Assembly: GCF_013409935.1 (NCBI RefSeq) | Contig: NZ_JACCCO010000001.1 | Location: forward strand, 3,162,001-3,226,000 | Direction of reading: 5' to 3' | Source: Streptosporangium sandarakinum | GTDB taxonomy: Bacteria; Actinomycetota; Actinomycetes; Streptosporangiales; Streptosporangiaceae | DNA: 64,000 nucleotides | In this document: one piece after another, positions 1 to 15,855 of the stretch | How positions within the stretch are numbered: position 1 is the first letter of the stretch | Layout of the letters: every line of letters begins with the position of its first letter | Position numbers and translations under genes: made by a program | The notes under the pieces: generated by a model | Told to the model about the DNA's origin: nothing | Database searches by the model: none | Seen by the model: only the letters and a program-made list of their open reading frames with translations

Positions 1-442
1 GCTCCGGCAGGCGTGCGCGAACCTGTCCGAGTCGGCCGCTCAGCTCAGGATGACGATCGAGATCGCGGCCCAGCGTCACTGGCGGGACATGGACGTCAGG
101 CTCGGCGCCGTCCAGGAGCACGCGACGGCCACGGGTCTGCACGCCGCGCAGGTGTCTCTGACGGCTCCCGAGGAGGTGGCGTCCGCCGCGCTGGCCCTGG
201 CCGAGTCGGCCGGCCGGAGCGCCGCCGCCGCGGTGAAGTCCATCGACCTGGCCTTCCAGGACGGCGTCTGCCTGGGCGGCCAGATGAGGAGTGCCCCGGA
301 CCTGCGCGACCTCGACGCCCGTCTCGCCGCCTTCCAGCTCGCCGCCAGGCGCGAGGTGACCGGCGGCCCGGAGGCGGGGAGCACGCCGGACCCCGGCACG
401 GGACGCCGCCGGGACGGGGAGGTGACGCGCCGCACGGAGTGA
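1..442 (+). CDS. C-terminal part of an unrecognised helical protein (5' end outside window)
   Basis: The frame is open from base 2 to the TGA ending at 442, without a ribosome site at the first internal ATG (base 50), so the true start lies upstream of the window. The visible ~146 residues are Ala/Glu/Arg-rich and predicted helical (for example a segment around LALAESAGRSAAAAVKSIDL), with a charged low-complexity tail. I see no catalytic motif, signal peptide or membrane segment, and do not recognise the family. It converges on the nSTAND-type gene that ends 38 bases further on. A link to the neighbouring RiPP genes is possible but unsupported. Confidence 0.55.
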   Translation, partial: LRQACANLSESAAQLRMTIEIAAQRHWRDMDVRLGAVQEHATATGLHAAQVSLTAPEEVASAALALAESAGRSAAAAVKSIDLAFQDGVCLGGQMRSAPDLRDLDARLAAFQLAARREVTGGPEAGSTPDPGTGRRRDGEVTRRTE

Positions 443-479
443 GGGCGGCACGGAGTGATCGCCGTGCGACTCCGCGTCG

Positions 480-2531
480 TCACCGCCCCGGATCGTCATG
501 GTACGGCTCACCCGGCTCCGAGGCCGCCAGCAGTCCCAGGGCGACCTCGCGCCGGTGGGGTGGCAGCGGCGCACCAGCGGCCGTCAGCGCCCGGCCCGCG
601 AGGTCGGCGGCGCCGACCCGGTCTCCCTCCGCCGCCCGTGCCCGCGCGCCGTACAGCAGTACGGAACCCTCGTGCGGCGCGTCGGCGAGCACGGCGGCCA
701 ACTCGCCGTCGGCGGCCCCGAAGTCGTGCAGCGTGGCCAGCGCGAAGGCGCGGGCCGCCCGGGTGACGGGCTCCGCGCGGTGCGGCACCCGGTCCAGATC
801 GCGTAGCGCCTCCTCGGCCTCGCCGAGGTCGGCGAGGATCTCCCCGCGCACGCGCAGGGCGTCCGGCGTGTTCCCGTCGACGGCCAGCACCCCGTTGAGC
901 ACCGCCACGGCCGCCCGTGGGCGACCCAGCTCCCCGAGCGCCCACCCGAGCTGGGTCTGCACCGTCAGGTCGTTGGGCACCCGCTCGACGGCCGCACGCA
1001 GCAGGGTGAGGGCGAGCGCCCCGTCCCCCTGCCGTAGGTGTAGCCGACCGGCCGCCGCCAGCAGCCGCCCCACCGCGGAGGTGTCTCCCAGGGCCTCGAA
1101 CATGGTCGTGGCCGTGTCGTAGGACCGGACGGCCTCCTCCAGGTCGCCCTCCTCGCAGGCGATGTTGCCGAGCAGGGACCACGCCTCGGCGCGCGGGCGC
1201 AGATCGTCGTCACCGGCTTCCAGGATCCTCCGGACGTGCCCGCGCGCGAGCGCGGCCTCCCCCTCGGCGAGGGCTTGGACCGCGGCGTGCAGCAGCGCCG
1301 CGGAGGACGTCGGCGCCGGAGGAACCGCCGGAACCGGGCCGCCGACGACGAGCCCGCGGACGACCGCGGCGAGACGGTCGTCGTACAGCGCGTACTCCCG
1401 CGAGCCGGACGCCCCTCCCTCGGACCGGAGGAGGTGGAGGGCGGCCAGTGCCCGCAGCACGGAACCGGGCACGCCGGCTGCCTCCGCCTCCCGTTCGCCG
1501 ACCCGCGCGCGTCCGGGGAAGCCTGCGGTGAGTGTCCGTCCCAGCCAGTTGAGCAGCCGTTCGGGGTACAGGTCATGGTCGGTGGCGATCCCGGAGACGA
1601 CGCGCCGCCAGGTGTCGCCGAGGAACCGCTCGGCGCCGCCCTCCCGGCGCAGGTGTGGTCCGGTGACGACGTCGGCGCCGGAGAACGTCTCCCACAGCGA
1701 GGAACACGCCGTCTGGACCAGCGCCGGGTGCACCGTGTCGGTCGGAGAGGCGACCGGTCTTCCCATGTCGTCGAGGAGCGTCACCGAGCGGAGGTCGTCG
1801 ACCAGTTCCTCCGCCGCGCCGGGCGCGAAGGGACGGCCCCGGGTCTCCGAGGGGCCGCGGACCGCCCGCGTCGCCGCGTCGCGATCCAAGGGCGCCAGGA
1901 CGACCTTCGAGCCCGCGGCCGTCCCGAACCGGGCACGGTAGGGCTCGAAGAGATCGGTGAACTCCTCTCGGCCCGCGAGCAGCAGGTGCAGTCCCGGATG
2001 GTCGTCCAGGGCGGCGGCGAGTTCGTCGACGAACGCGCCGACGTGCCGTCGGCGGTCCTCGCGGTCGTCGAACAGCTCCTCCATCTGGTCGATGGCGGCC
2101 ATCAGCGGGCCGGAGGCGGCGGAGCGGCCGGCGATCGCCTCGTATCTGCGCAGGTGCCCGGAGATCGTCATCGCGGCCAGCCGGGCCGGTGACTCGTGGG
2201 GGGACCAGGAGGCCAGCAGCGCGAGGACGTAGGGGTTGTGCTCGGGCATTGCCGCGACGGGGAAGGAGGAGGCGTACGTCAGGCGGCCGACGGGAAGGAT
2301 CCGCAGTCGCTCCGACGCCAGCAGCGGACAGACGCCGGCGTTCAGCAGCGAGGTCTTGCCGACCCCCGGCCCCCCCGTGAGAACGGTCAGCCGGTCGGCC
2401 TTCCAGAGTCTGGCGACCTGCCGGGACTCCCGTTCCCGCCCGAAGAACAGGCGGCTCTCCTCGGTGCGGAACGCGCGCAGGCCGATGTAGGGACCGTGGT
2501 CCACGGTATTGATCAGAGTCTCAACGGTCAC
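480..2531 (-). CDS. nSTAND-type ATPase with C-terminal TPR repeats
   Basis: 683 residues from a GTG start. The N-terminus has the nSTAND1 signature (GPYIGLRAF...RLFFGRERE, residues ~13-36), then a Walker A loop GGPGVGKTSLLN (~53-64) and a Walker B-like stretch AAIDQMEELFDD (~145-156), giving a STAND-class NTPase module of about 400 residues. The C-terminal ~250 residues are helical Ala/Leu-rich repeats with TPR spacing (for example GNIACEEGDLEEAVRSYDTA). STAND proteins act as ligand-triggered switches: the TPR part would bind a partner and the NTPase would oligomerise. It follows the precursor gene on the same strand after 277 bp and may belong to the RiPP locus. The usual TIR-like FxsC is not visible here, so this ATPase may fill that slot; this is inference. 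Cytoplasmic. Confidence 0.8.
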   Translation of the reverse strand: MTVETLINTVDHGPYIGLRAFRTEESRLFFGRERESRQVARLWKADRLTVLTGGPGVGKTSLLNAGVCPLLASERLRILPVGRLTYASSFPVAAMPEHNPYVLALLASWSPHESPARLAAMTISGHLRRYEAIAGRSAASGPLMAAIDQMEELFDDREDRRRHVGAFVDELAAALDDHPGLHLLLAGREEFTDLFEPYRARFGTAAGSKVVLAPLDRDAATRAVRGPSETRGRPFAPGAAEELVDDLRSVTLLDDMGRPVASPTDTVHPALVQTACSSLWETFSGADVVTGPHLRREGGAERFLGDTWRRVVSGIATDHDLYPERLLNWLGRTLTAGFPGRARVGEREAEAAGVPGSVLRALAALHLLRSEGGASGSREYALYDDRLAAVVRGLVVGGPVPAVPPAPTSSAALLHAAVQALAEGEAALARGHVRRILEAGDDDLRPRAEAWSLLGNIACEEGDLEEAVRSYDTATTMFEALGDTSAVGRLLAAAGRLHLRQGDGALALTLLRAAVERVPNDLTVQTQLGWALGELGRPRAAVAVLNGVLAVDGNTPDALRVRGEILADLGEAEEALRDLDRVPHRAEPVTRAARAFALATLHDFGAADGELAAVLADAPHEGSVLLYGARARAAEGDRVGAADLAGRALTAAGAPLPPHRREVALGLLAASEPGEPYHDDPGR

Positions 2532-2808
2532 ATCGATCCCATCCGGTGCAATACAACCACTCGTCGACCGAATCCTGCGTCACTGCCGAAATAGTGGGGC
2601 GGTGGCCTGAGTGACCAAATGGAATGTGTGCACGAGTTTTACGCATCCTTGCTGCCGCCTCATCCGCGCACGCCCATCGGGGGCGCGGATTCCGCCGTTT
2701 CGCGGACGGACGACGGCACGCCGACTCGGCCGACCGCGGAACGGGCATCGACCGCACCCTCATCACCCACTTGTCATCGACGGGATCTCGTCCGCGGCGC
2801 GCGGGGCG

Positions 2809-2979
2809 TCACACGGACGACTGATGACCCGCGACCGGATCGGCGTCCCGTTCCTCGATCTCCATGAGCCTGCGAAGCGCGTGCGCCAAGGCGGTCTCGT
2901 CGAGCCTGTCGAGATCTCTCAGGGAAAGCCCTGAGACGTCGATGAGGCCACTGTCCCGCGTGGCGGCGTCATCCCACAT
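2809..2979 (-). CDS. fxsA: FxSxx-COOH-class RiPP precursor peptide with His in place of Phe (fxsA-like)
   Basis: 56 residues from ATG 2979, which has GGGAG five bases upstream; an in-frame GTG at 2994 (61 residues) is the alternative. The leader GLIDVSGLSLRDLDRLDETALAHALRRL matches in type the conserved FxsA leader (GLIDV-GLSL-DL-LDE-ALA-ALRR). The C-terminus is ..DPVAGHQSSV. The family is defined by a terminal Phe-x-Ser-x-x motif, in which FxsB-type enzymes join the aromatic ring to the Ser beta carbon. Here the aromatic position is His (codon CAT, 2824-2826). TTT or TTC would need at least two base changes, so one sequencing error does not explain it. It lies divergent from the fxsT-type gene and upstream of the nSTAND gene. 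Class assignment is strong; the product is unknown. Confidence 0.85.
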   Translation of the reverse strand: MWDDAATRDSGLIDVSGLSLRDLDRLDETALAHALRRLMEIEERDADPVAGHQSSV

Positions 2980-3187
2980 AGGCGCTCCCGTCACCTTCGT
3001 TCCCGGTGCTCCGCCCCTCTATCTTCGCACGCCGTCCGACCATGGTCACGCGCCCGTTTGTGCATGTCCGAATTCAACCGAATGTCACGGATAAATTCAC
3101 TTATAACGATTAATCATGTCATTCCGGACAACAGGAACGGCATCCTCGATATTCCCCCACAGCAGACACCGATGAAACGTCCGCCTC

Positions 3188-3226
3188 TTCGACGATCGGG
3201 GGGTGGCGCGCTTAGGATGGTCATTG
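3188..3226 (+). promoter_or_regulatory. Putative promoter giving a leaderless fxsT mRNA
   Basis: The hexamer TAGGAT at 3213-3218 fits the actinobacterial TAnnnT -10 element and ends 8 bases before GTG 3226. A weak -35 candidate TTCGAC lies at 3188-3193 with a long 19-base spacer. The AGGA within the same stretch could instead act as a ribosome site. The upstream 200 bp are clearly AT-richer than the surrounding genes, as expected for the divergent fxsA/fxsT control region. Confidence 0.4.
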
Positions 3227-5763
3227 TGAAGGCTGAACACGGGCGTATTCCACACGTTTGGGGCAAAGTACCCCAGCGCAACATGAACTTCACGGGAAGG
3301 GAAGACCTTCTCTCCCGTCTGCGCGAAGGCATCACGATGGACGTCACCGCCGTTCTGCCTCACGCGCTGCACGGCATCGGCGGCGTCGGGAAGACCCAGC
3401 TCGCCGTCGAGTACGCCTACCGCTACCAGGGCGACTACGAGCTCGTCTGGTGGATCTCCGCCGACCAGCCCCTCCTCGTGCGCTCGTCGCTCGCCGCCCT
3501 GGCGCCCCACCTCAAGCTGCCCTCGGCGGCGGTGACCGGTATCGAGGACGCCGCCGCCGCCGTCCTCGACGCGCTGCGCCGGGGCGAGCCCTACTCCCGG
3601 TGGCTGCTCATCTTCGACAACGCCGACCAGCCCGAGGACATCAACGAGATCATCCCCCGAGGCCCCGGGCACGTGCTGATCACCTCGCGCAACCACCGGT
3701 GGGAAGGGGTCGTCGACACGCTCGCCGTCGACGTCTTCGATCGGGCGGAGAGCGTGGAGTTCCTCAGCCGCCGCGTGCCCAAGGCCATCAGCACCGTCGA
3801 CGCGGGCCGCCTGGCCGACGAGCTGGGCGACCTGCCTCTGGCGTTGGAGCAGGCCGGCGCCCTGCAGGCCGAGACGGGGATGTCCGTCGACGAGTACCTC
3901 CGGCTGCTCACCGAGAAGACCAGCCAGCTACTGGCCGAGAGCAAGCCCTCGGAGTACCCCCTGTCGATGACCGCGGCGTGGTCGCTGTCGGTGGAGCGGC
4001 TGAAAGAGCAGCTCCCCGAGGCGGTCGAGCTGCTGCGCTGCTGCGCGTTCTTCGGCGCCGAGCCCATCCCCCGCGACGTGTTCCGGCCGCTGTCCGGCGA
4101 CACGGCCGACGTGGACGACCCGCAGGCCGCCGGCGCACTGCGCCGCATCCTCGGCAACCCCATCCTGCTCAGCAGGGCCATCCGGGAACTCGGCCGGTTC
4201 GCCCTGGCCCGCATCGACTCCCCCAGCCGGACCATCCAGGTGCACCGGCTGATCCAGGCGCTGATCCGCGACGAGCTGACCGCCCGGGAGCAGGCCCGCT
4301 ACCGCGGCGAGGTCCACCTCCTGCTCGCCGCCGGTGCCCCGCTCGACCCCGACGACACGGCCAACTGGCCGCGATACGCCGACCTCCTCGCCCACGTGAC
4401 GCCCGCGCTGGTGCCGGAGAGCAGGAACCCGACCGTCCGGCGGATGGCACTCGACCTCCTCCGCTACCTGTTCGTCTCCGGCGGCTACCAGTCGGCGCGT
4501 GCCTTCGCGCAGCAGTTCCTGCAGCGCTGGCGGGCCGATTCGGGTTCCGACCACCCCGACGTGCTGTCCGCGCAGCGGCACCTGGGCGACGTCCTGCGCG
4601 AGCTGGGCGAGTACCGCGAGGCGTACGACCTCAACAGCAGGACGCTGGAGCAGATGACGCGGGTCCTGGGCCCGGACCACCCGCAGACGCTGGTGGTCAC
4701 CAACATCCACGCCGCCGACCTGCGCGCCCGCGGCGACTTCGCCGCGGCCCTGGAGGTCGACGAGGAGGCCCGGCGGCGGCACGAGGCGGTGCTCGGCCCG
4801 GTCCACCCCTGGACGCTCAACATGATGAACAACCTCGCGGTCGACCACGGCCTGATCAGCCGGTACCAGCGGGCCCGCGAGCTGCACGAGGACACTTACC
4901 TCCTCCAGCAGCAGAACGTCGGCGTCAACGGCGTCAGCAGGACCGACGTGCTCTCCTCCTGGAACGGCCTGTCCCGGGTGGTGCGGCTGTGCGGCGACTA
5001 CCCCGAGGCCCGCGACCTCGGTGAGGACGCCCACGCCTACGGTGTGCAGGAGCTCGGTGCCGAGCATCCCTGGACACTCCGCACCGCCAAGGACCTGTCC
5101 ATCGCGCTGCGGCGGACCGGCCGGATCCCGGAGGCCATCGAGCTGGCCCGGGACATTCTCTCCCGCTACGAGCGGATCTTCGGCAAGGACCACCCGGACA
5201 CCCTCGCCGCCGCGATGAGCCTGGCCAACGCGCTGCGCAGCAACGGCGACATCGACGACGCCTTCCACCTCGCCGAGGACACCCTCGACCGCTACCCCGC
5301 CGTCTACGGCGCGGACCATCCCTACCACCACGGCTGCGCCGGCAACCTGGCCGTACTGCGCCGGGTGCGGGGCGACGTGATCGGCGCCCGCGACCTCGAC
5401 CGGGCCTCACTCGCCGCCCTGGACGCCCGGCTCTCGCGTGACCATCACTACAGCCTCACCGTCGCGACCAACCTCGCCACCGACCTGGTCATGCTGGGGG
5501 AGCTGGACGAGGCCATCCCGCTGCGGCGCGACACCCTGGAGCGGCTGCGGACCATCCTCGGCCGCGAGCACCCCGTCGCACTGGCCGGCGCGGCGAACCT
5601 CGTCGCCGACCTGTACCGGGCGGGCGCCGAGGGGGAGGCGAAGAGCCTCTCGGAGGAGACCCTGGACGCCTACGCCCGGACCCTCGGACCCGACCATCCG
5701 GACACCAGGGTCGCCCTGGAAGGCAGGCACCTCGACCTCGACTTCGACCCCCCGCCGATCTGA
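3226..5763 (+). CDS. fxsT: FxSxx-COOH system NB-ARC/tetratricopeptide repeat protein (fxsT-like)
   Basis: 845 residues. It begins with the characteristic IPHVWGKVPQRNMNFTGRE motif of this family, then a Walker A HGIGGVGKTQLA (Lys ~56), Walker B WLLIFDNAD (~127-135), and an NB-ARC/winged-helix part to ~residue 400. The C-terminal half carries nine kinesin-light-chain-like TPRs marked by G-x-x-HP-x-TL (for example LGPDHPQTL, LGPVHPWTL, FGKDHPDTL). Such proteins are regularly encoded beside fxsA and fxsB and are thought to be STAND-type sensors or scaffolds; their precise role is not known to me. GTG 3226 is chosen because the family's conserved N-terminus begins a few residues later. ATG 3217 is possible. 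Upstream in-frame codons back to 3058 are AT-rich and look non-coding. Divergent from the precursor gene. Confidence 0.88.
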   Translation: MKAEHGRIPHVWGKVPQRNMNFTGREDLLSRLREGITMDVTAVLPHALHGIGGVGKTQLAVEYAYRYQGDYELVWWISADQPLLVRSSLAALAPHLKLPSAAVTGIEDAAAAVLDALRRGEPYSRWLLIFDNADQPEDINEIIPRGPGHVLITSRNHRWEGVVDTLAVDVFDRAESVEFLSRRVPKAISTVDAGRLADELGDLPLALEQAGALQAETGMSVDEYLRLLTEKTSQLLAESKPSEYPLSMTAAWSLSVERLKEQLPEAVELLRCCAFFGAEPIPRDVFRPLSGDTADVDDPQAAGALRRILGNPILLSRAIRELGRFALARIDSPSRTIQVHRLIQALIRDELTAREQARYRGEVHLLLAAGAPLDPDDTANWPRYADLLAHVTPALVPESRNPTVRRMALDLLRYLFVSGGYQSARAFAQQFLQRWRADSGSDHPDVLSAQRHLGDVLRELGEYREAYDLNSRTLEQMTRVLGPDHPQTLVVTNIHAADLRARGDFAAALEVDEEARRRHEAVLGPVHPWTLNMMNNLAVDHGLISRYQRARELHEDTYLLQQQNVGVNGVSRTDVLSSWNGLSRVVRLCGDYPEARDLGEDAHAYGVQELGAEHPWTLRTAKDLSIALRRTGRIPEAIELARDILSRYERIFGKDHPDTLAAAMSLANALRSNGDIDDAFHLAEDTLDRYPAVYGADHPYHHGCAGNLAVLRRVRGDVIGARDLDRASLAALDARLSRDHHYSLTVATNLATDLVMLGELDEAIPLRRDTLERLRTILGREHPVALAGAANLVADLYRAGAEGEAKSLSEETLDAYARTLGPDHPDTRVALEGRHLDLDFDPPPI

Positions 5764-5779
5764 TCCGGACCCGCCGGAT

Positions 5780-5815
5780 CCGGCCCGGTCCGCCCTGACG
5801 GGCGGGCCGGGCCGG
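5780..5815. terminator. Bidirectional terminator hairpin between convergent fxsT and hydroxylase genes
   Basis: Two 16-base arms (5780-5795 and 5800-5815) pair fully with one G-U and a TGAC loop. The hairpin starts 17 bases after the fxsT stop and lies 85 bases beyond the end of the hydroxylase gene on the other strand. It has no U-tract, which is usual for actinobacterial I-shaped terminators. Confidence 0.8.
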
Positions 5816-5900
5816 TCGTGTGTGCCGGGTGGTGGCCGCGCGGGCGGACAACCGTGCGGACGACCGGGGCGCGCCGTGCGGGCGGTTCGTGCCGGGCCGG

Positions 5901-7259
5901 TCAGGGCGAGCCGTTGCGCAGGCGCCAGTGCCGTCGGTGCCGCTCGGCGGCGCGGCGGGCGAGCCCGAGCGCCGGGTCCGGCACCGGCTCCCCACGCCAG
6001 CCGGCCAGCGTCCGGTTCATCGAGGAGACGAACGCCGTCCCCTCGGGGGTCAGCGCCCCGCTCGCCGTGAGCGTCCGCACGACCTCGGCCGCGGCGTCCC
6101 GCCAGCGGACGAACTCGGCGTTCGCCCTGATCGCCGCGTTCCCGTGTTCGTGAAGGCGCTGCCTGCGCCAGAACCCGGCCACCCCCAGGTGTGCGTAGAC
6201 CCCCTGCAGCAGACCGCTCACCGGCCGGGGGTCGTCGCGCCACGGCGCGTAGTACCGCGCCCCGGTGTCCGGCAGGGTCAGCGGGACCAGGTCGAGCAAC
6301 GCCGTGAGCTTGGCGTGCTGCACCTCGTGGGCCAGCGTCACGGCCAGCACCCGGTCGTCCTCCGGAGCGGAGAGCGCCACGCAACCGAACGTCTCCCGGG
6401 ACGACACGCTCACCTGCCCGGCCGTCGGCGGAGCCAGCGGTGCCAGCACCCTGACGATCTCGCCGATCTCCGCGGCGACGGTCCAGTGGTGCTTGACGAG
6501 CAGCTGCCACGCTCCGTCGAGGAGTACCTGCCACCTCGCGGCCTCGGCTGCCGTCAGTCGGCCGGCCGCGGTCGTCGCCGCGGGCAGGCAGTGCGCGTCC
6601 ACGTCGTCGAGGAGCAGCTCGATCCCGCTTCCTCCCGCCTCGGCCGACAGCCTGCGCACGCCGTGCCAGCCCGGGGCCTCGGCCCGGTGGTCCGGCGGCA
6701 CCCGGACGCGGTCGTCACCGGCCACGATCTCCGCCCCGCCGCGCGGCGCGACCCGCACGACCGCGCGGTCACCGCCCCCGCCGGAGGCCAGGACGGCGCG
6801 GCCGAGAGTGGGCAGCGCGACGACCCCCTCATGGACGGGCACCTCGACGACGGCCGCGACACCCGCCCTGATCGCCGTCGCGGCGGCGACGGCCGCGAGG
6901 TCCGCGGGGACAGCCGGAACGGCCGGGCCCGGCCGCGTGGGCCCGCCGTCCGGAGCCGCCGCCCCACCGTGCAGGGCGCGCAGCGTACGGCGGGCCCACG
7001 CGCCCGTGCCCGGATGCCGGATCACCGCTTCGGCCTCCGCAGGCGCGTGGGCCTGCACGTCCGCGAGCAGGTCGTAGGCCCGGCGGGTTCGGGCGGCCTG
7101 GGGATGGCGGGTCCCGGCCGCGGCGTCCACGACCCCGCGGATCAGCAGGATGTGCCTGCTGTGCTGGGCTGCGGCCAGGTCACGGACCGCGGCACCGCCG
7201 CCTCCCGCCGCGAGAGCCCGGAAGACGGCCTCGCTCAGGCGGTGCGCGCCGAGGTTCAT
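5901..7259 (-). CDS. HExxH-type alpha-ketoglutarate-dependent peptide beta-hydroxylase
   Basis: 452 residues, ATG start overlapping the fxsB stop (ATGA), so translation is coupled to the maturase. The HEVQH motif at residues 311-315, followed by a conserved-looking block TGARYYAPWRDDPRP (~332-346) and GLLQGVYAHLGVAGFW, matches the aKG-HExxH peptide hydroxylase family that accompanies FxsB-type radical SAM enzymes. Members studied as fusions with radical SAM domains use Fe(II) and 2-oxoglutarate to hydroxylate a beta carbon of the cross-linked peptide. The HExxH supplies metal ligands and the enzyme is not a protease. The N-terminal ~300 residues are Ala-rich and probably contain the peptide-binding part. 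Cytoplasmic. Family call is firm; the residue hydroxylated in this HQS core is inference. Confidence 0.85.
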   Translation of the reverse strand: MNLGAHRLSEAVFRALAAGGGGAAVRDLAAAQHSRHILLIRGVVDAAAGTRHPQAARTRRAYDLLADVQAHAPAEAEAVIRHPGTGAWARRTLRALHGGAAAPDGGPTRPGPAVPAVPADLAAVAAATAIRAGVAAVVEVPVHEGVVALPTLGRAVLASGGGGDRAVVRVAPRGGAEIVAGDDRVRVPPDHRAEAPGWHGVRRLSAEAGGSGIELLLDDVDAHCLPAATTAAGRLTAAEAARWQVLLDGAWQLLVKHHWTVAAEIGEIVRVLAPLAPPTAGQVSVSSRETFGCVALSAPEDDRVLAVTLAHEVQHAKLTALLDLVPLTLPDTGARYYAPWRDDPRPVSGLLQGVYAHLGVAGFWRRQRLHEHGNAAIRANAEFVRWRDAAAEVVRTLTASGALTPEGTAFVSSMNRTLAGWRGEPVPDPALGLARRAAERHRRHWRLRNGSP

Positions 7260-8494
7260 GGGCGGCCCAGCCGTACGGCCAGGTCCGCCTCAACGGTCCG
7301 CTTCACATGGGTGACCAGGCGGAACAGGTCCGGACAGTAGACCGACGGATTGGCGAAACCGGTGCCCGAGCGGTAGCGGTGCGCGTACAGCCCCGCCCCG
7401 CACACCCGGTGCACCGGGCATGCCCGGCACGTCGCCGACAGTGCCCCGGCCCCGAGTTGCCTGGCCACCACCGCCGGCAGCGACAGCACCGCGTCGAAGG
7501 GGTCGCGGTCCACGTGCAGGCCGGTGTGCGGAGCTCCGTGGTAGGCGGACTTCAGCACGTCGGACTGCTCGATGCTTCCGTCGGTCTCGACGACCAGCAC
7601 GCCCACCGGTGAGAGCCCGATCGCCTCGCTGGTGGAGGCCCCGCCGAAGAGGAGGTGGAGGATCTCACCGAACAGGCGCACCCGCGTCCTCTGCCGGGGC
7701 TCCCGGTACCACCGGTCGAAGACCGCGACGAGCCAGTCCCCGTACGGTGTGGCGGAGCGGTCCGGGCCGCGGCCGGGCGGCGGGGCGTCCCAGTTTCCGT
7801 GGGGAAGTAATAGGTCGACGACCGGCGGCCGGAACTCCGTCAGCGCCTCGTAGGTGTCCAGTGGGTCGTTGCGCAGGTCGACGGCGCACAGCAGGCCGAC
7901 GAACAGGTGCCGGTGACGGGGGCTCGTCAGCCGTTCGAGGGCGGCCCGCACGGACGCGTGGCTGCCGCCGCCGTCCGCGCGGCGGCGGTGCCGGTCGTGC
8001 GCCTCTGCCGTGCCGTCCAGGCTGACCCCCACCCGGACGCCGAGCTCGTCGAACAGGCGGAGGTAGTCCTCGGTGAGGCGGACCGCGTTGGTCTGGACGA
8101 CCACGTCCGTCCGCGCGGTCGGGCCGACCTCTGCGCGCAGGGCGTCCACCAGGCGGCGGATCGTCGCGGGCCCGGCGAGCAGGGGCTCACCGCCGTGCAG
8201 CACGACACGGACCGCGGTCAGACCGTGGGACCGTACGTGCTCGGCGACGCGGGCGGCGACCCGGTCGGCGATCCGCGGGGACATCCGGACGGGGCGGGAA
8301 CGCCACGTCTGGTCCGCCATTTCGTAGACGTAGCAGTAATCGCACGCGAGGTCGCACCGGCTGTGGACTTTGACGATGAACTCCCGGAAGGGGGTGGGAC
8401 GCCAGCCCGCCGCGGTCAGGGCCGGAACGTCCAGTGTCGCGGGCCATTCCTTCCCGCCCTCCGCGAGGAAGGGCCGCTGGGCACGTATGGCCAC
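7256..8494 (-). CDS. fxsB: FxsB-type radical SAM/SPASM cyclophane-forming maturase
   Basis: 412 residues from GTG 8494 (AGAGG about ten bases upstream). Upstream in-frame codons to 8575 are Gly/Arg/Ser-rich and look non-coding. The radical SAM cluster CDLACDYC (Cys47, Cys51, Cys54) follows FREFIVKVHSR, typical of FxsB. HGGEPLL and later radical SAM motifs are present. The C-terminal SPASM region holds CRACPVHRVCGAG and a further Cys in SVYCPDL, ligands for auxiliary [4Fe-4S] clusters. The family installs three-residue cyclophanes by joining an aromatic ring to the beta carbon of the residue two places on (FxS). Here its only visible substrate has HxS. Its stop codon overlaps the start of the hydroxylase. 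The precursor gene lies 4.3 kb away on the same strand, separated by the opposed fxsT gene. Confidence 0.9.
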   Translation of the reverse strand: MAIRAQRPFLAEGGKEWPATLDVPALTAAGWRPTPFREFIVKVHSRCDLACDYCYVYEMADQTWRSRPVRMSPRIADRVAARVAEHVRSHGLTAVRVVLHGGEPLLAGPATIRRLVDALRAEVGPTARTDVVVQTNAVRLTEDYLRLFDELGVRVGVSLDGTAEAHDRHRRRADGGGSHASVRAALERLTSPRHRHLFVGLLCAVDLRNDPLDTYEALTEFRPPVVDLLLPHGNWDAPPPGRGPDRSATPYGDWLVAVFDRWYREPRQRTRVRLFGEILHLLFGGASTSEAIGLSPVGVLVVETDGSIEQSDVLKSAYHGAPHTGLHVDRDPFDAVLSLPAVVARQLGAGALSATCRACPVHRVCGAGLYAHRYRSGTGFANPSVYCPDLFRLVTHVKRTVEADLAVRLGRP

Positions 8495-8701
8495 GCGCGA
8501 TCCGCCTCTCGTCCGTGCTCCGTCCGAGCGGCCGGGTTCGCCGCCGTCCTGTCCGTTCTGTTTCGAGGATCGCAAAACTCAGAGTCAGACACAATACGCG
8601 AAAATTCATCAAAACCCGACGGTCTTCCCTTTCCGTAAAGGTTACCTCTTTCCCGCCGCGCTTCCCGCGGACCACGGAAACCATGGGAAAGGAGAATCGG
8701 A
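8495..8701. other. AT-rich spacer upstream of fxsB
   Basis: No gene on either strand. The stretch 8576-8700 is much lower in GC than its surroundings and probably holds the minus-strand fxsB promoter. I could not fix convincing -35/-10 elements. Confidence 0.4.
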
Positions 8702-8752
8702 ATGACCGCTTTTCCGGCATTTGGCAGCCGAAATACCGGCGGCGTTTCGTGA
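8702..8752 (+). CDS. Possible 16-codon ORF with strong ribosome site, divergent from fxsB
   Basis: AAAGGAG lies seven bases before ATG 8702; the frame reads MTAFPAFGSRNTGGVS and stops at 8752. It contains an F-G-S triplet, formally an FxS, but lacks the conserved FxsA leader and the C-terminal position. It could be a leader peptide, a remnant 5' end of a gene removed by the deletions next door, or chance. Low confidence that it encodes a functional peptide. Confidence 0.22.
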   Translation: MTAFPAFGSRNTGGVS

Positions 8753-8989
8753 CGAGGCCGCCCGGGTTCCGGGGCCGCGGAGATCACGGCGGCGCCCCGC
8801 GCGACGGCCCCGGGAGCAGGAGGCCGCTCACCACGCCCGGCAGGGCCGCGCGGCGGGCCGGTCCCGCCTCGCCGACCGGCGCGGCGAGCATCCCCAGCCG
8901 GAGCTGGTCCAGACGCCGGGCCGCCCGGTCGCGCAACTCGTCCAGCTCGCCGAACTGGATGGAGTCGGTCGGGCGGCTCTTGGCGCAGG

Positions 8990-9337: not shown

Positions 9338-9362
9338 TGACAAAGGTCTCCCGCCCCGGGGT

Positions 9363-10157
9363 GTGGCGGATTGTGACGCCGGAGCCGCCGGACTGGAGTG
9401 GGGGCGGCAGACGAAGGCCGCCTTCACGGCCTCACCGAGCGCACCCGGCTGGAGCGGAACATTGCCTCACCGCGACACGTGCCACCACTCCGCGGTCGCC
9501 GCCCTGGCGGCCTCCGCCGCCCTGGTGACCGGTCTCGTCCTCGCGCCCGCCGACGCGGTGCAGGGCGAGGCGCAGCGTCTCATGTACGTGCACGTCCCGG
9601 CGGCCTGGACCGCCTACGCCGCGTTCACCGTCACGGCGGTCTCGGGCCTGGCCGTCCTGGCCCGCCGCGGCACGGTGTGAGACCGGGTGGGCCGGGCCGC
9701 CGCGGAGCTCGGCGCGGGGATGACGGCCCTCGCCGTGGCGCTGGGCATGATCTGGGGGCGGCCGGTGTGGGGCGTCTGGTGGACGTGGGACCCGCGCCTG
9801 GTCGCCACGCTCGCCATGCTGCTGGCCTTCCTCACCTGCCTGGCGGTGCGGCGGTGGCACGGCGACGCCGCCCGCGGGGCCCGGGGCGCGGCCGTCGCGG
9901 GGGTGGCGGGCTTCGCGATGGTGCCCGTCACGCACTTCTCCGTCCTGTGGTGGCGGACGCTGCACCAGCCTCCCTCGGTGCTGCGCCCGCCCGGGGACGT
10001 GCCGGTGGACCCGCCGATGCTGGCCGCCCTGGCCGCCGGGGTCCTGGCGTTCACCCTGCTCGGATGCCTGGTGGTCGCCCGGCGGGTCCGCGCGCTGGAC
10101 GCCGCGGCGGCCCCGGCGGAACACGTCAGCCGCGCCGCGCTGGGGAGGGCCGCGTGA
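9363..10157 (+). pseudogene. ccmC: ccmC, haem exporter/transfer protein, interrupted by in-frame TGA
   Basis: The two halves lie in one reading frame and together make a CcmC. The first contains LAPADAVQGEAQRLMYVHVPAAW, the second RPVWGVWWTWDPRLVATL, the tryptophan-rich haem-handling WWD motif, plus further hydrophobic helices. They are separated by TGA at 9678-9680 in a context (RRGTV*DRVGRAAAE) where the family usually has Trp (WDRL), so TGG to TGA is the likely change. The 5' end is also uncertain: no good ribosome site, GTG 9363 or TTG 9462 are candidates. No ccmA or ccmB precede it; the FDH fragment sits where they would be. CcmC would hand haem to CcmE at the outer face of the membrane. 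Likely non-functional unless the stop is read through or is a sequencing error. Confidence 0.85.
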
Positions 10158-10246
10158 CCGGCTGGGGATGGGTGTGGGCCGGCTACCTGCTCACCGCCGC
10201 CACCTGGGCGGCGTACCTGCTCCGATCGGGTCGGCGGCCGTCGTGA
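10154..10246 (+). CDS. ccmD: CcmD-like small membrane protein
   Basis: 30 residues, GTG start overlapping the ccmC stop (GTGA) and stop overlapping the ccmE start. The sequence MTGWGWVWAGYLLTAATWAA.. is one membrane helix followed by a basic RSGRRPS tail, as in CcmD, which holds CcmC and CcmE together. Called from position in the operon, size and topology; such short proteins have little sequence signature. Confidence 0.75.
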   Translation: MTGWGWVWAGYLLTAATWAAYLLRSGRRPS

Positions 10247-10704
10247 TCCCGCCCCGCCGGTGGCTCCGGCGCCCGCCGTCCGCTCCGTGGACGCGGCGCC
10301 GCCCGCTCCCGGACCGGGTACGGCGCCGCCTGCCGCTGCTGCTCGTCGGCGTCGCCGCGCTCACCCTCGGTGCCCTGGCGTTCTCCGGGATCGGGGACGG
10401 GATGGTGTACTACCGCACGCCCACCGAACTCGCCGGGCACGACGCCGGGCAGACCGGCCGGCTGCGGGTCGGCGGGCTGGTGCTGCCGCACTCGGTGCGG
10501 GCCGAGGGGGACGCCCTCCGCTTCCGGCTGAGCGACGGCGTCGGCGCCGTGGAGGTGCTGCACCGGGGCGAGGTGCCGCCGGTGTTCCGCGAGGGGCAGG
10601 GAGCCGTGGCCGAGGGCGTGCTCGGTCCCGGCGGCGTGTTCCGCTCGGACCGCCTGATGGTCAAACACTCCGACGAGTACCGCGCCGCGGAGCCGGCCCG
10701 GTGA
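10243..10704 (+). CDS. ccmE: Cytochrome c maturation haem chaperone CcmE
   Basis: 153 residues, GTG start inside the ccmD stop (GTGA). An Arg-rich N-terminus and one membrane anchor (LPLLLVGVAALTLGALAFSG) are followed by an OB-fold periplasm-side domain with GLVLPHSV and the C-terminal haem-attachment motif VKHSDEYR (His142, Tyr146). CcmE binds haem covalently through that His and carries it to CcmF/H. The key residues are intact, unlike ccmC and ccmH around it. Stop overlaps the ccmF start. Confidence 0.9.
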   Translation: MIPPRRWLRRPPSAPWTRRRPLPDRVRRRLPLLLVGVAALTLGALAFSGIGDGMVYYRTPTELAGHDAGQTGRLRVGGLVLPHSVRAEGDALRFRLSDGVGAVEVLHRGEVPPVFREGQGAVAEGVLGPGGVFRSDRLMVKHSDEYRAAEPAR

Positions 10705-12938
10705 AGTGCCTGCTGGGAACGCTCGCGCTCTGGGCCGGCGCGGCGGGTTCGGTGGTCGCCGCCCTCGCCTGGGCCGGTCTCGCCGGGCGCCGTACGGCGG
10801 TGGCCGCCACGGCGGCGGCGTCCGGCTGCGCGGCGGCGGCGTTCGCCGTCCTGGAATGGGCCCTGCTCACCCGTGACTTCCAGGTCGGATTCGTGGCCCG
10901 CAACGGCGGGCGGGGCGTCCCGTCCTACTACACCTTCACCAGCCTCTGGTCGGCCGTCGAGGGCTCGCTGGCGCTGTGGGCGCTCGCGCTCACCGGGTGC
11001 GCCCTCGTCGCCGGGCTCGGCCGGGACGAGGGACCGCACCGGCGGATCGCGATGGCCGTGCTCATGACGCTGTGCGCGTGCTTCCTCGCCCTCGTCCCGC
11101 TGGCCGCGAACCCCTTCCGGGAGGTCGCCGCGCCCCCCGCGGACGGCCCCGGGCCCAATCCCCTGCTGCGCGGCCACCCCCTCATGGGGATCCATCCGCC
11201 GCTGCTGTACCTCGGCTACCTCGCCCTGGCCGTGCCGTTCGCCCTCGGGGTCGCGAGCCTGGTCGCGGGGCGCGCCGGGCGTCCGGTGGTGCGGGCGATG
11301 CGGCGGTGGACGCTCGCCGCCTGGGCCGCGCTGACCGCCGGCATCGTGCTGGGCGCCTGGTGGTCCTACGGCGTGCTCGGCTGGGGCGGCTACTGGGAGT
11401 GGGACCCGGTGGAGAACGCCTCGATCGTCCCGTGGTTCACCGCGACGGCGTCCCTGCACTCACTGGCCGTACGGGACCGCCACGGCTCGCTGGGGCCGTG
11501 GTCCGCGGCGCTCGCGACGGCGGGGTTCCCGCTGGCACTGCTGGGGACGTTCCTCACCCGCGGCGGGGCGGTCGCCAGCGTCCACTCCTTCACCCGGTCC
11601 GCCGTGGGCCCGCCGCTGCTGGGCATCCTCACCGCGACCCTCATCGCGACCTGCGGCCTGCTGGTGTGGCGGGCCGGGCGGCTCCGCCGGGCCGGGGAGG
11701 TCCCCGGCGGTGACGGCCATGGGACGCCGGTCGGGGACGCCTCCGGTGACGGCCGAGGGGCGTTGGCCGGGGGTGCACACGGTGACGGCCATGGGACGCC
11801 GGTCGGGAACGCCTGCGGTGACGGTCGCGGAACGTTGGTCGGGGCCGGTGTCGCGCTGCTGGCCACCCTGGCGTTCACCGTGCTCCTCGGCACCCTGTAC
11901 CCGCTGGTCGTGAAGGTCCTCGTCGGGGCGGACGTCGCCGTCGGCCCGCCGTACTTCAACCGGGTGACCGTCCCGCTCGCCCTGGCGCTGCTCGTGCTCA
12001 TGGCGGTGGCCCCGCTCGTCCCCCCGAACCGGGCGCGGCCGCCGCTGCGACGGCTGGCCTGGCCGGTCGCGGCGGGCGCGACGACCGTCGCGGCCCTCGG
12101 CTTCGGCGGGTTCAGCGGCTTCGGCGGCTTCGCCGGACCCGGTGGATTCAGCGGCTCCGGTGGTTTCGGCGGTCACGGCGGCGGTCACGGGCCCCTGCCG
12201 CTGGTCGCCTTCGGGCTCGGGGCGTTCGTCCTCGCGGCCACCGCGCTCCGCGTCCGCGAGGTCGCCGGGCGGCACGGCCCTGCCGCGCCGGTCCGCGCGT
12301 CCGTCCGGCGGCGACTGGGCGGCTCCATCGTCCACGCGGGGGTCGCGCTGGCCGCCGTGGCGATCGCCGGCTCCACGGCGTACACCCACGACGCGTGGGG
12401 ACGCCTGGAACCGGGGGACACCCTGCGGGCCGGCGGGTACGTCCTGCGGCTCGACGGCGTGGAACGGCGGCGCGACGCCGACGCCATGTCCGTCGCCGCG
12501 CGGGTGAGCGTCTTCGAGGACGGCCGCCCGGCCGGGACCCTGCGCCCGTCGATCACCTTCTACCCGGCGAGCGGCGCACCCCCGGTCGGCGCCCCCGCCG
12601 TGCGCACCGGGCCGCTGGCCGACCTCTACATCACCGTCTCGGAGGTGGATCCGGCGGACGGTACGGCGGTGCTGCGCGCGGCCGTCAACCCGCTGATGGC
12701 CCTGCTGTGGACATCCGGAGCCGTGATGGTGCTCGGCGCCCTGGCGGCCCTGCCCCGCCCCGGGGCGCGGCGTCTGCGGCGTTCACGGCATCCTCGGTGG
12801 GCGCGGCGCCCGCGGCAGGCGCGGCGGATGCCGTCCGCGCGGATCGGCGGGACCGAGGCACCCTCCGTGGCGGTGCGGGAGGACCCGGGCGGACCCGGCG
12901 TGGACAGCCGCGAGGCCGTGGGAGGGCCGGCCCGGTGA
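10701..12938 (+). CDS. ccmF: Cytochrome c haem lyase subunit CcmF
   Basis: 745 residues, GTG start overlapping the ccmE stop. Many membrane helices and the WWD haem-binding motif GWGGYWEWDPVENAS (~227-241) identify CcmF, which with CcmH joins haem to apocytochromes. PLLYLGYLALAVPFALG and FLTRGG are further family blocks. Two unusual low-complexity insertions sit between helices: a 72-bp tandem duplication encoding GDGHGTPVG-type repeats (~residues 336-381) and a Gly/Phe-rich stretch GFGGFSGFGGF.. (~468-496). The reading frame is intact. The operon is compact and all genes overlap by four bases. Confidence 0.9.
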   Translation: MKCLLGTLALWAGAAGSVVAALAWAGLAGRRTAVAATAAASGCAAAAFAVLEWALLTRDFQVGFVARNGGRGVPSYYTFTSLWSAVEGSLALWALALTGCALVAGLGRDEGPHRRIAMAVLMTLCACFLALVPLAANPFREVAAPPADGPGPNPLLRGHPLMGIHPPLLYLGYLALAVPFALGVASLVAGRAGRPVVRAMRRWTLAAWAALTAGIVLGAWWSYGVLGWGGYWEWDPVENASIVPWFTATASLHSLAVRDRHGSLGPWSAALATAGFPLALLGTFLTRGGAVASVHSFTRSAVGPPLLGILTATLIATCGLLVWRAGRLRRAGEVPGGDGHGTPVGDASGDGRGALAGGAHGDGHGTPVGNACGDGRGTLVGAGVALLATLAFTVLLGTLYPLVVKVLVGADVAVGPPYFNRVTVPLALALLVLMAVAPLVPPNRARPPLRRLAWPVAAGATTVAALGFGGFSGFGGFAGPGGFSGSGGFGGHGGGHGPLPLVAFGLGAFVLAATALRVREVAGRHGPAAPVRASVRRRLGGSIVHAGVALAAVAIAGSTAYTHDAWGRLEPGDTLRAGGYVLRLDGVERRRDADAMSVAARVSVFEDGRPAGTLRPSITFYPASGAPPVGAPAVRTGPLADLYITVSEVDPADGTAVLRAAVNPLMALLWTSGAVMVLGALAALPRPGARRLRRSRHPRWARRPRQARRMPSARIGGTEAPSVAVREDPGGPGVDSREAVGGPAR
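11709..11845 (+). repeat. 72-bp tandem repeat inside ccmF
   Basis: Copy one 11709-11780, copy two 11781 to about 11845, beginning with the same GGTGACGGCCATGGGACGCC. The unit is a multiple of three and keeps the frame, encoding a Gly/His/Asp-rich loop between membrane helices. Confidence 0.85.
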
Positions 12939-13618
12939 ATCCGACGGACCCGACAGGGCCGGTGGACCCCACAGACCCGATGGGCCCGGCGAACCCGGCT
13001 GATCCGGCAGGCCCGGGAAGTCTCGCGGACCCGGCCGGTCCGGTGGGCACGGTGGATCCGCCGGCCCCGGCCGGTCCCTCGCGGAGATGGCGTTATCCCG
13101 CGCTGCTCCTGGTCGCCGCGGCGGTGATGGCCCTGTCGGCGGTCCTCGCCCGCGGTCTCGCGCGCGGACCGGCGGAACCGGCGGTGCCCGCCGACCGGCC
13201 GGCCCCGAAGCTGTCCGGCACCACCCTGGACGGCACGCGGTTCACACTCGGCGAGCTGCGGGGGCACGTCGTGCTCGTGAACGTCTGGGCGTCCTGGTGC
13301 GAGTCGTGCCGAGAGGAGTTCCCGCTCGTCGTGGAGACCGCACGGCGGCTCGGCCCGCGAGGACTGCGGATCGTGGGGGTGGACACCCGCGACACCCGGG
13401 AGGCCGCCCGGCTGTTCCTGCGCGAGTCCGGCGTGACCGACGTGAGCGTCCCTGTCCAGCTCTTCGACCCGGACGGCCGGCTGGCCCTCGAACTCGGCGT
13501 GCTCGGCGTGCCGGAGACCTTCCTGGTCGGCCGGGACGGCCGGATCGCCGACCGCGTGCTCGGCCCGGTGACACAGCGGTGGATCGACCGCGCCGTACTG
13601 CCCCGGCTCACGCGATGA
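12935..13618 (+). CDS. ccmG: Thioredoxin-like cytochrome c maturation protein CcmG/DsbE
   Basis: 227 residues, GTG start overlapping the ccmF stop. The thioredoxin fold carries NVWASWCESCREEFP (Cys122, Cys125), and the C-terminal VPETFLVGRDGRI has the cis-Pro region. It would reduce the apocytochrome CxxCH pair before haem attachment. A membrane anchor (YPALLLVAAAVMALSAVLA, ~53-71) is preceded by a ~48-residue cytoplasmic tail of near-repeats (PTDPTGPVDPTDPMGP-like), which is not usual for CcmG. Frame intact; stop overlaps the ccmH start. Confidence 0.88.
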   Translation: MNPTDPTGPVDPTDPMGPANPADPAGPGSLADPAGPVGTVDPPAPAGPSRRWRYPALLLVAAAVMALSAVLARGLARGPAEPAVPADRPAPKLSGTTLDGTRFTLGELRGHVVLVNVWASWCESCREEFPLVVETARRLGPRGLRIVGVDTRDTREAARLFLRESGVTDVSVPVQLFDPDGRLALELGVLGVPETFLVGRDGRIADRVLGPVTQRWIDRAVLPRLTR

Positions 13619-13914
13619 GACGCCGCCCCGCGCCTTCGGGCCGCACCGCGGCGTGCCGCTCCACGTCCCCGGATCACATCGTGGACCGCCCCGTGAGACG
13701 CCGGCTCGCGGTCGCGGGGCTGATCGTTCTCGTGGCGCTCGCCTGCGCGGCGGTGTGGCGTGCCGGCCGGAGCGAACCGGCCCTCGGCGAGCGCGTCATG
13801 GAGGTGGCCGCGATGCTGCGCTGCCCCGACTGCCAGGGGCTGTCCGCCGCCGAGTCGCCGTCGAAGCTGGCCGGGGCCATGCGCGCGGAGATCGGCCGCC
13901 GGCTGACCCGGGGC
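13615..13914 (+). pseudogene. ccmH: ccmH, truncated at 3' end by a deletion
   Basis: ATG overlaps the ccmG stop. About 100 residues remain: membrane helix LAVAGLIVLVALACAAVW and the redox motif LRCPDCQGLSAAESPSKLAGAMRAEIGRRL (Cys70, Cys73). Immediately after RRLTRG the sequence becomes the reverse complement of the truncated 3' part of qcrB. The open frame runs on to 14043 through this antisense material as meaningless Arg/Ser/Thr codons. CcmH normally continues with a second helix and often a TPR domain. The protein could be made but would lack its end. Confidence 0.88.
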
Positions 13915-15004
13915 CGGTCGAGCACCTGGTGCCGGTCCCGGTCGCCGGTCAGGCGCCGGTCCACCCAGGGCCAGACGTACATGAGGAGGATGACGACCGT
14001 GGGGAAGAACACACCGGGCAGGAACGGCGACGGGACGAGATAGCCGAAGACCCGGAGCTCCACGGCGGGGAAGATGCGGAGCATCCCGTCCACCCAGCCG
14101 AGGTACCAGTCCGGCTGGGCGGGCGCGGTCACCGCCGCCGGCTCGTACGGCCCCCACACCCAGACCGGGTTGATCTGGGCGAAGCCCCCGAAGCCGAAGA
14201 CCACCGCGAGCACCGCGCACAGCAGGGCCAGGGACCGGATGCCGTAGGTCGGCCAGAGCTTCGACCCGACCACGTTGTGGTCGTTGCGCCCGGGGCCGGG
14301 GAACTGCGCGTGCTTCTGCCTGATGATCACCGCCAGGTGGACGCCGAGCAGGGCCGCGATGAGCACCGGGATGAGGAGGACGTGCAGGATGTAGAGCCGG
14401 GGGATGATCAGGTCGGCCGGGAACTCGCCGCCGAAGAGCAGGAACTGGACCACGGCCCCACCACCGGTATCGACAGCGCGATCGCCGACGCGACTCTCAG
14501 GCCGCTTCCGGACAGCAGGTCGTCGGGGAGCGAGTACCCGGCGAAGGACGTGGCCATCCCGAGGACGAACATCGTCAGCCCGGTCACCCAGTTGATCTCC
14601 CGGGGCTTGCGGAACGCGCCGGTGAAGAAGATCCGGCACATGTGGACGATGATCGCTCCGATGAAGAACAGCGCCGACCAGTGGTGGGCCTGCCGCATCA
14701 GCAGGCCGGCTCGCACGTCCCAGCTCAGCTCGACGGTCGAGGCGTAGGCGGCCGACACGGTGGTCCCGCGCAGCGGCGCGTAGCCGCCGCTGTAGACGCG
14801 GTCGGCCATGCTCGCGTCGTAGAAGAACGTCAGGAAGACACCGGTGGCGACGAGCGCCACGAAGGAGTAGAGGGCGATCTCGCCCAGCATGAACGTCCAG
14901 TGGTCCGGGAAGACCTTGGCCAGCGCCAGCCGGAGTTGCGGCGCGATCCGCAGCCGGGCGTCCAGCCAGCCCATGCTCCGCCGCACCAGCCACCGCGTGA
15001 TCAT
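13915..15004 (-). pseudogene. qcrB: qcrB, cytochrome b of the bc1 complex, frameshifted and 3'-truncated
   Basis: ATG 15004 overlaps the qcrA stop. The N-terminal part (ITRWLVRRSMGWLDARL, FPDHWTFMLGEIALYSF, QAHHWSALFFIGAIIVHM, FTGAFRKPREINW) has the haem-ligating His residues of cytochrome b. At about 14449-14452 one base is missing from an expected TGGGTCC: the frame breaks after SIPVVGPW and resumes as VQFLLFGGEFP in another frame. The rest reads IIPRLYILHVLLIPVL, then PDWYLGWVDGMLRIFP, ending at VDRRLTGDRDRHQVLDRP. Beyond that it joins truncated ccmH. Usual length is ~540 residues; about 360 codons remain. Quinol oxidation by this complex should be lost. Confidence 0.9.
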
Positions 15005-15855
15005 GTCTTCCTCCAGTAGCCGGGACCGGGCGGGCCCGAGAGGCCGCCCCGGGCGACGAGCGTCCCGTCGGCGCCCACCCCGAGCGGCAGCTGCGGCAGC
15101 GGCCGGGCGGCAGGTCCGGCGACCGGCCTGGCCCCGCCGAGGACGTCGAAGAGCGACTGGTGGCAGGGGCACAGGAGCTGCTGGGTCTGCTTGACGTACA
15201 GCCCGACCGGGCAGCCGGCGTGGGTGCAGAGCTTGGAGTAGGCCACCAGGCCGTCGACGGCCCAGTTCTCCCGCCCGGGGGGCAGCTCCAGGTCGGCCGG
15301 GTCCACCCGGATGAGCAGCACCGCCGCGTCGCCGATCCCGGCCCGTCCCTCGGGGAACACCGTGACCACGCCGCCTTCGGCGACATCGCCGGGCCGTACC
15401 GGCCGGCCCCTGTCGTTCACGACGCGGGCGCCCGCCCGCCAGGGGGTGTCGGCGAGGGCGCGCCACGGGTTCGGGCCGCGCGCCAGCAGCGACCGGATCG
15501 GGAAGAGCGCGGCCAGGCCCAGCACGCCGAGCGCGAGGGTCAGCATCCTGCGGGGCAGCGCCGTCCGGGTGAGGGGGGCCTCGTCGCGGGCGAACTCCGA
15601 GGCCAGGGCGCGGCGTTCGGGCAGCGGCGAGATCATCGGCTCCCGCTCCTCCACGAACGGCCCCTGGGGCAGGAGCGTGTGCGCCCAGAGGGCGAATCCC
15701 ACCGCGAGCCCGGCGAACGCCACCAGGAGGCCGAGCCCGAGCAGCTGGGTGTCGTCGCCGAGGACGTACATCGCGGCGAAGAAGGCGGCGGCGAGGGCGG
15801 CCACCCCGAACGCGACGGCGACGTGGCGCTCCGCCCGGCGCCGGGGCCCGCTCAC
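15001..15855 (-). CDS. qcrA: Rieske iron-sulfur subunit of the bc1 complex
   Basis: 284 residues, GTG start overlapping the qcrC stop. Three hydrophobic segments near the N-terminus fit the three-helix actinobacterial QcrA. The Rieske ligands are CTHAGC (Cys210, His212) and CPCHQS (Cys229, His232), with Cys215/Cys231 for the disulfide. It would carry electrons from quinol to the cytochrome c subunit at the outer membrane face. Intact here, though its partner qcrB is broken. Confidence 0.9.
   Translation of the reverse strand: MSGPRRRAERHVAVAFGVAALAAAFFAAMYVLGDDTQLLGLGLLVAFAGLAVGFALWAHTLLPQGPFVEEREPMISPLPERRALASEFARDEAPLTRTALPRRMLTLALGVLGLAALFPIRSLLARGPNPWRALADTPWRAGARVVNDRGRPVRPGDVAEGGVVTVFPEGRAGIGDAAVLLIRVDPADLELPPGRENWAVDGLVAYSKLCTHAGCPVGLYVKQTQQLLCPCHQSLFDVLGGARPVAGPAARPLPQLPLGVGADGTLVARGGLSGPPGPGYWRKT

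Follow-up and report, generated by a model that had tools for sequence, protein, structure and literature searches.

A 64,000-nucleotide (nt) stretch of the genome of the soil actinomycete Streptosporangium sandarakinum (contig NZ_JACCCO010000001.1, positions 3,162,001–3,226,000; termed the window) carries at positions 2809–8494 a locus that is probably a functional triceptide cluster of the FxS type, with His in place of the Phe of the FxSxx core of the precursor. The predicted product is a His-Ser cyclophane, which would then probably be hydroxylated. This assignment is based on sequence comparisons and on analogy with related enzymes. Within a known peptide family the locus seems to be a real variant that recurs, and not a new kind of system. 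If the assignment is true, the FxsB maturase, hitherto tied to Phe-Ser rings, makes His-Ser rings too.

The precursor and its His codon

The precursor open reading frame (positions 2809–2994, minus strand) has the C-terminal residues DADPVAGHQSSV, followed by a stop codon. It is open from a GTG at position 2994; an alternative ATG at position 2979, with GGGAG shortly upstream, is the likelier start as judged by eye. The aa sequence matches the FxSxx-COOH family (TIGR04268) above the cut-off of 28 bits with 44/44 profile positions aligned (scores are in Table 1). The Ser two places on, the two residues after it and the stop codon are present as in the family (HQSSV-stop), but the first motif position, whose Phe names the motif, has a His. 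An earlier note on this DNA, made from the sequence alone, had placed a His at the aromatic position, and direct reading of the codon (CAT, positions 2824–2826) bears this out.

The leader, the enzyme and the TPR protein are shared with the FxSxx-COOH/FxsB/FxsT systems of actinomycetes (TIGR04268, TIGR04269, NF040586). The fxsT gene is divergent from the precursor gene and is followed by a hydroxylase gene and fxsB, both on the minus strand. The gene inventory of the earlier note was correct for the FxsA leader, FxsB and the fxsT-type gene, each of which gives a family match over its cut-off, but the aKG-HExxH hydroxylase gene at 5901–7259 had been overlooked.

Among named relatives, the closest match found comes from Streptosporangium pseudovulgare JCM 3115 (locus L039; L numbers refer to loci fetched for comparison), whose FxsB is 98% identical. 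Window positions 1–8848 are collinear with L039 at 96%–97% identity. The two precursor genes differ at three codons, all silent, with no amino acid change. One of the silent differences falls in the His codon itself, which is CAT in the window and CAC in S. pseudovulgare; in each case the nearest Phe codon is two changes off. The ratio of nonsynonymous to synonymous substitutions (dN/dS), by a simple counting method on this one pair of genomes, is 0.015 for fxsT, 0.12 for fxsB and 0.33 for the hydroxylase gene. Since the same residue is encoded by a different silent codon and dN/dS is low, a read error or a decaying gene is very unlikely, to the point of being hardly credible. The sole point in favor of either is that His departs from the family consensus, whereas the four genes are open, over their cut-offs and have intact motifs. 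By these comparisons the His at the motif position is real and conserved, not an error; the same opinion in the earlier note thus gains from a second assembly. It may be added that the hydroxylase gene evolves faster than fxsB and fxsT between these two close species.

Alternatively, another part of the genome might encode a canonical FxSxx precursor that is the true substrate. Loci L045, L046, L050, L057, L058, L074 and L180 have two precursors about 10–11 kb apart, and the genome is about 96% complete. However, no second precursor was found in the 64-kb window, where an FxsA profile built here gave one match above 10 bits. In the genome, where TIGR04268 was scored on 150 of 584 first-look candidates, 17 matches had E ≤ 1, and the one over the cut-off is the VAGHQSSV precursor. 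FxsB gives a single match in the genome at E ≤ 0.001. On the candidates scored, a substrate encoded elsewhere is very improbable. The earlier note had claimed a single precursor and had said that a canonical one nearby, as the real substrate, would speak against its reading; the single precursor stands for the window and, over the family cut-off, for the genome as scored, and no canonical one was found in either.

The maturase, the hydroxylase and the predicted ring

For comparison, loci were fetched around FxsB genes from the same bacterial family and from named genomes. FxsB reading frames above 350 bits number 231, of which 182 are distinct; for 153 of the 182 a precursor could be assigned with a profile made for this comparison, and the 29 unpaired ones were dropped. 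In 137 of the 153 pairs the motif residue of the precursor is Phe, and in 11 it is His.

The fxsB gene of the window starts with GTG at position 8494, has its stop at 7256 and overlaps the hydroxylase gene by 4 bases. Its product is a member of TIGR04269 (cut-off 370 bits). The second-best NCBIfam model is YhhB (354.8 bits), and the third-best gives 119.7 bits. FxsB is also related to the ChlB radical S-adenosylmethionine (SAM) domain (PDB 9gm3, E = 2.6e-75). PADLOC, run on four proteins, matched FxsB alone, weakly, to viperin models.

A total of 95 FxsB columns are near-invariant, i.e. each has one residue in at least 97% of the 137 Phe-type rows. The window and L039 sequences retain 95/95. 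The six near-invariant Cys residues, at 45, 49, 52, 354, 357 and 363 (residues are counted along the 410-aa piece 7256–8488), are kept in the window sequence. Judged by these conserved columns, the window FxsB is an intact enzyme. In each of the remaining nine His-type FxsB sequences, 2–6 of these 95 columns are changed.

These data bear on the possibility that FxsB is inactive on His, such that no ring is closed any more and the peptide works in linear form or is only hydroxylated. The family-naming Phe is indeed gone, and the hydroxylase gene is the fastest changing of fxsB, fxsT and HExxH. However, the full set of near-invariant columns and the dN/dS of fxsB are hard to square with an enzyme that has no substrate, and His recurs with FxsB elsewhere, albeit with the column differences just given outside S. 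pseudovulgare. Loss of the ring step is improbable.

MscB is taken here to be a member of the FxsB family. The bond made by MscB is C4(Phe)-Cβ(Ser), as given in the review PMC11002830. In the same source, HaaB and ScaB make C2(His)-Cβ(Ala) bonds and YhhB makes a C2(His)-Cβ(Arg) bond. HaaB and ScaB (His-Ala-Ala) and YhhB thus form a three-residue cyclophane through C2 of His, and the window core is also His-based. Because these three enzymes use C2 of His and YhhB is the second-best model for the window FxsB, a bond between imidazole C2 and Ser Cβ is expected in HQS. FxsB, using SAM and iron-sulphur clusters, would activate the Ser beta carbon and bond it to a carbon of the His imidazole, for which HaaB, YhhB and ScaB make C2 the likeliest choice; the H-Q-S three-residue cyclophane would be closed with loss of two hydrogens. 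The His-Ser three-residue cyclophane predicted in the earlier note is what one would naturally expect of a real locus with a conserved His, an intact enzyme and no canonical precursor found, and in this core prediction the note is supported.

Alternatively, FxsB may act without use of an imidazole carbon, by forming an imidazole N-C bond, by taking Gln or the other Ser as bond partner, or by an oxidation that leaves no ring. The bonds made by radical SAM/SPASM enzymes vary, e.g. C-N in dynobactin and C-O in darobactin (PMC11002830), and the residues after His differ among the His cores (HQSSV, HDSSI, HDSMI, HQDST, HNESQ). This alternative is rather unlikely, as against it stand the His C2 to beta carbon link common to HaaB, ScaB and YhhB in that source and the rank of the YhhB model.

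The earlier note had called such a ring a new product type. This is too strong, as His cyclophanes are published for HaaB, YhhB and ScaB (PMC11002830). A literature search yielded no report of FxsB with His or of an H-x-S ring from FxsB, the subscription-only triceptide papers cited in PMC11002830 lying outside its reach. Made by an FxsB enzyme, an H-x-S ring would count as a new variant; His three-residue cyclophanes as such are already known.

The locus is not of the Haa type (HaaA/HaaB/HaaT). Its core is His-Gln-Ser, and its FxsT gives no match to the HaaT model NF041717 at E ≤ 0.1. HaaT was found over its cut-off in 0/148 genomes, with weaker matches at E ≤ 1e-100 in 21, and none of the frames ending in HAA in the fetched loci was judged by eye to be a precursor. 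Two annotated YhhA precursors end in SYDRMHHRHNRS.

The hydroxylase is a member of TIGR04267 (cut-off 40 bits) with the motif HEVQH at residues 311–315 (window positions 6315–6329), and is related to PDB 22nu and to ChlH (8s5f). ChlB/ChlH (PDB 9gm3, 8s5f) are homologous to the window FxsB and hydroxylase, but they form a fused radical SAM-aKG-HExxH protein; in the window the two genes are separate, though overlapping, and the core sequence is a different one. ChlH, the HExxH part of the fused enzyme, beta-hydroxylates Asp and His after the cyclophane is formed (preprint PMC12636437). Because ChlH acts on Asp and His of a preformed cyclophane, hydroxylation of the HQS ring is expected; by this analogy the window HExxH enzyme probably beta-hydroxylates a ring residue next, perhaps the His itself.

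The HE..H residues are intact in 11/11 His-type rows and in 116/116 Phe-type rows of more than 330 residues. A separate HExxH protein with an intact motif adjoins FxsB at 11/11 His loci; among the 137 Phe rows it is separate in 107, fused in 14 and not found in 16 (separate HExxH, 11/11 vs 107/137, Fisher p = 0.12; the rows depend on one another, and a miss may in some cases reflect the end of a stretch). A hydroxylated His ring would thus be a testable product, as all His loci carry an intact HExxH, without a significant excess over Phe loci.

His-type loci among relatives

In the machine alignment of the motif position (n = 153), 135 precursors have Phe, 11 have His, one has Trp and six have a gap. 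When read by eye, the six gapped precursors have Phe (2), Tyr (1), Trp (1) or no aromatic residue (2), so that the final labels are Phe 137, His 11, Trp 2, Tyr 1 and no aromatic 2. This comparison of HxSxx with FxSxx among FxsA-like precursors had been proposed in the earlier note. The locus set was chosen by likeness to the window FxsB, and the 7% of His is not a family-wide frequency.

The His cores are HQSSV (window, L039), HDSSI (L087), HDSMI (L088), HQSSAAQWE (L240, L245), HQDST (L079), HNESQ (L247, L249), HTESA (L253) and HRESQ (L252). By pattern, six rows are H-x-S, four are H-x-E and one is H-x-D. Locus L180 of Planomonospora parontospora is Phe-type with the core GFQSSI and an FxsB 70% identical to that of the window; the last six residues of the two precursors differ solely by Phe/His and Ile/Val. 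If the window FxsB does act on His, natural enzyme pairs about 65%–70% identical (with the cores FQSSI of L180 and HQSSV of the window) would be available for finding the determinants of ring choice, and a biocatalyst for imidazole macrocycles would be at hand.

A profile of His-type precursors, run against 394 genomes, gave 26 matches at E ≤ 1e-4, seven of which are loci already known. Among the 19 others, the four that were read, chosen as near-full or end-reaching matches, gave no new His core; all four end in FDSSI or FQSSI.

On the FxsB tree of 153 rows, His versus the rest requires five changes; when the rows are cut down to 69, of which 11 are His, 53 Phe and 5 Trp/Tyr/none, it requires six. 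This suggests several origins of the His type. In the approximately unbiased (AU) test, a single clade of the 11 His rows has a log-likelihood 58.5 lower (p = 0.092) and is not rejected. A clade of the window, L039, L087 and L088 is 2.9 lower (p = 0.48) and is likewise not rejected. The earlier note had expected support from clustering of the maturase with other HxS-paired enzymes. The nearest relatives beyond S. pseudovulgare do not provide this, being Phe-type, but the clade with L087 and L088 is still compatible with the data.

A further, tentative reading, possible but doubtful, is that FxsB enzymes have repeatedly turned from Phe to His, and that the resulting beta-hydroxylated imidazole-Ser cyclophane, a small peptide that is charged and possibly metal-binding, is read by FxsT as a signal. 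If true, these loci would form a natural series on how one radical SAM pocket takes benzene or imidazole.

Two FxsB positions were considered as His-determining residues. Position 139 is T or G in 11/11 His rows, and D (108), N (11), G (9) or T (3) in the 137 Phe rows; it ranks first among 391 columns by one measure and second, behind position 43, by another. Independent pairs number 2 on supported branches and 4 on all branches, which does not suffice for a test. Position 43 is Ser in 133/137 and Gly in 4/137 Phe rows. It is Gly or Ala in His rows L087, L088, L079, L240 and L245, and still Ser in the window, L039, L247, L249, L252 and L253. Both positions are weak leads from the alignment.

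Several observations weigh against a His-Ser ring made by this FxsB. The nearest tree relatives of the window FxsB beyond S. pseudovulgare are Phe-type, and because of this the tree gives no sign of an FxsB remade for His. Position 139 is G, without Asp, in the Phe-type sister group of the window also, and in two YhhB homologues it is T and D. The ring partner is Ala or Arg in HaaB, ScaB and YhhB (PMC11002830), while the window core has Ser. HExxH of any kind is present at 11/11 His and 121/137 Phe loci, which is not significant (Fisher p = 0.61). Finally, the ring chemistry is inferred from sequence and from related enzymes.

In gene layout the window resembles 121 of the 137 Phe-type loci, which have the precursor more than 600 bases from fxsB and an FxsT in the stretch. 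The precursor lies within 600 bases of fxsB in 7/11 His rows vs 16/137 Phe rows. The seven His rows (L079, L240, L245, L247, L249, L252, L253), which do not include the window, have the precursor on the strand opposite fxsB and represent a small number of lineages.

Other residues are also seen at the motif position. Tyr is present in L091 (QYQSAA) and in L096, which has three tandem precursors, one of them with Tyr (TYSSSI); Trp is present in L181 (GWSSF) and L229 (GWNNGF). Precursors L117 and L246 are without an aromatic residue there and end in SNDYIESPP... and SNDYAESPP... Loci L045, L046, L057, L058, L074 and L180 each have two FxsB and two precursors, one FxsB being fused to HExxH and the other not; L050 has two precursors and one FxsB in the labelled set.

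FxsT and neighbouring genes

FxsT is a member of NF040586 (cut-off 300 bits). The family match begins at residue 71 (about position 3268), and the start placed at 3058 is uncertain. In Pfam, TPR_12 and TPR_10 are well above the cut-off and NB-ARC is just below it.

In PMC7159879, FxSxx peptide-processing systems are linked with proteins of the AP-ATPase/TPR kind and with VMAP conflict systems. The AP-ATPase/TPR and VMAP ternary systems of that source share with the window the FxSxx peptide, the radical SAM-SPASM enzyme, a zincin-like protein and NB-ARC/TPR. The zincin-like protein was read there as a peptidase, which is revised by work cited in PMC12636437. No VMAP or vWA component was found among the part of the neighbours that was scanned. 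By analogy, a signalling or conflict role for the window system is plausible. The modified tail would later be freed by some protease and might, together with FxsT (NB-ARC/TPR), serve a conflict-type system as its signal or effector, which is the weakest step of the proposed scheme.

Table 1. Features of the FxS-type locus and the adjoining gene in the window.
Feature	Position	Strand	Evidence
FxsA-type precursor, His variant, core VAGHQSSV-COOH	2809..2979	(-)	TIGR04268 45.9 bits; same protein in S. pseudovulgare
His codon CAT, aromatic position of FxSxx motif	2824..2826	(-)	direct reading; CAC in S. pseudovulgare
FxsT, NB-ARC (AP-ATPase)-like + TPR	3058..5763	(+)	NF040586 1051.6 bits
Putative aKG-HExxH-type peptide beta-hydroxylase	5901..7259	(-)	TIGR04267 174.5 bits
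FxsB radical SAM/SPASM maturase, predicted cyclophane-forming	7256..8494	(-)	TIGR04269 486.4 bits
nSTAND1 NTPase with TPRs	480..2531	(-)	PF20703 123.4 bits

The nSTAND1-TPR gene adjoins the precursor gene and is collinear in S. pseudovulgare (dN/dS 0.19). This nucleoside triphosphatase (NTPase) is a candidate member of the fxs system. On the other side, just behind fxsB, about 8.9 kb of S. pseudovulgare (L039 10976–19833, with NuoM-/NuoN-like genes) is absent from the window at position 8848. Locus L259, left of the window, has two further genes upstream of the fxs genes: a TPR protein (9361–11493) and an AfsR-like BTAD/NB-ARC regulator (13487–15859) with a partial, sub-cut-off likeness to HaaT.

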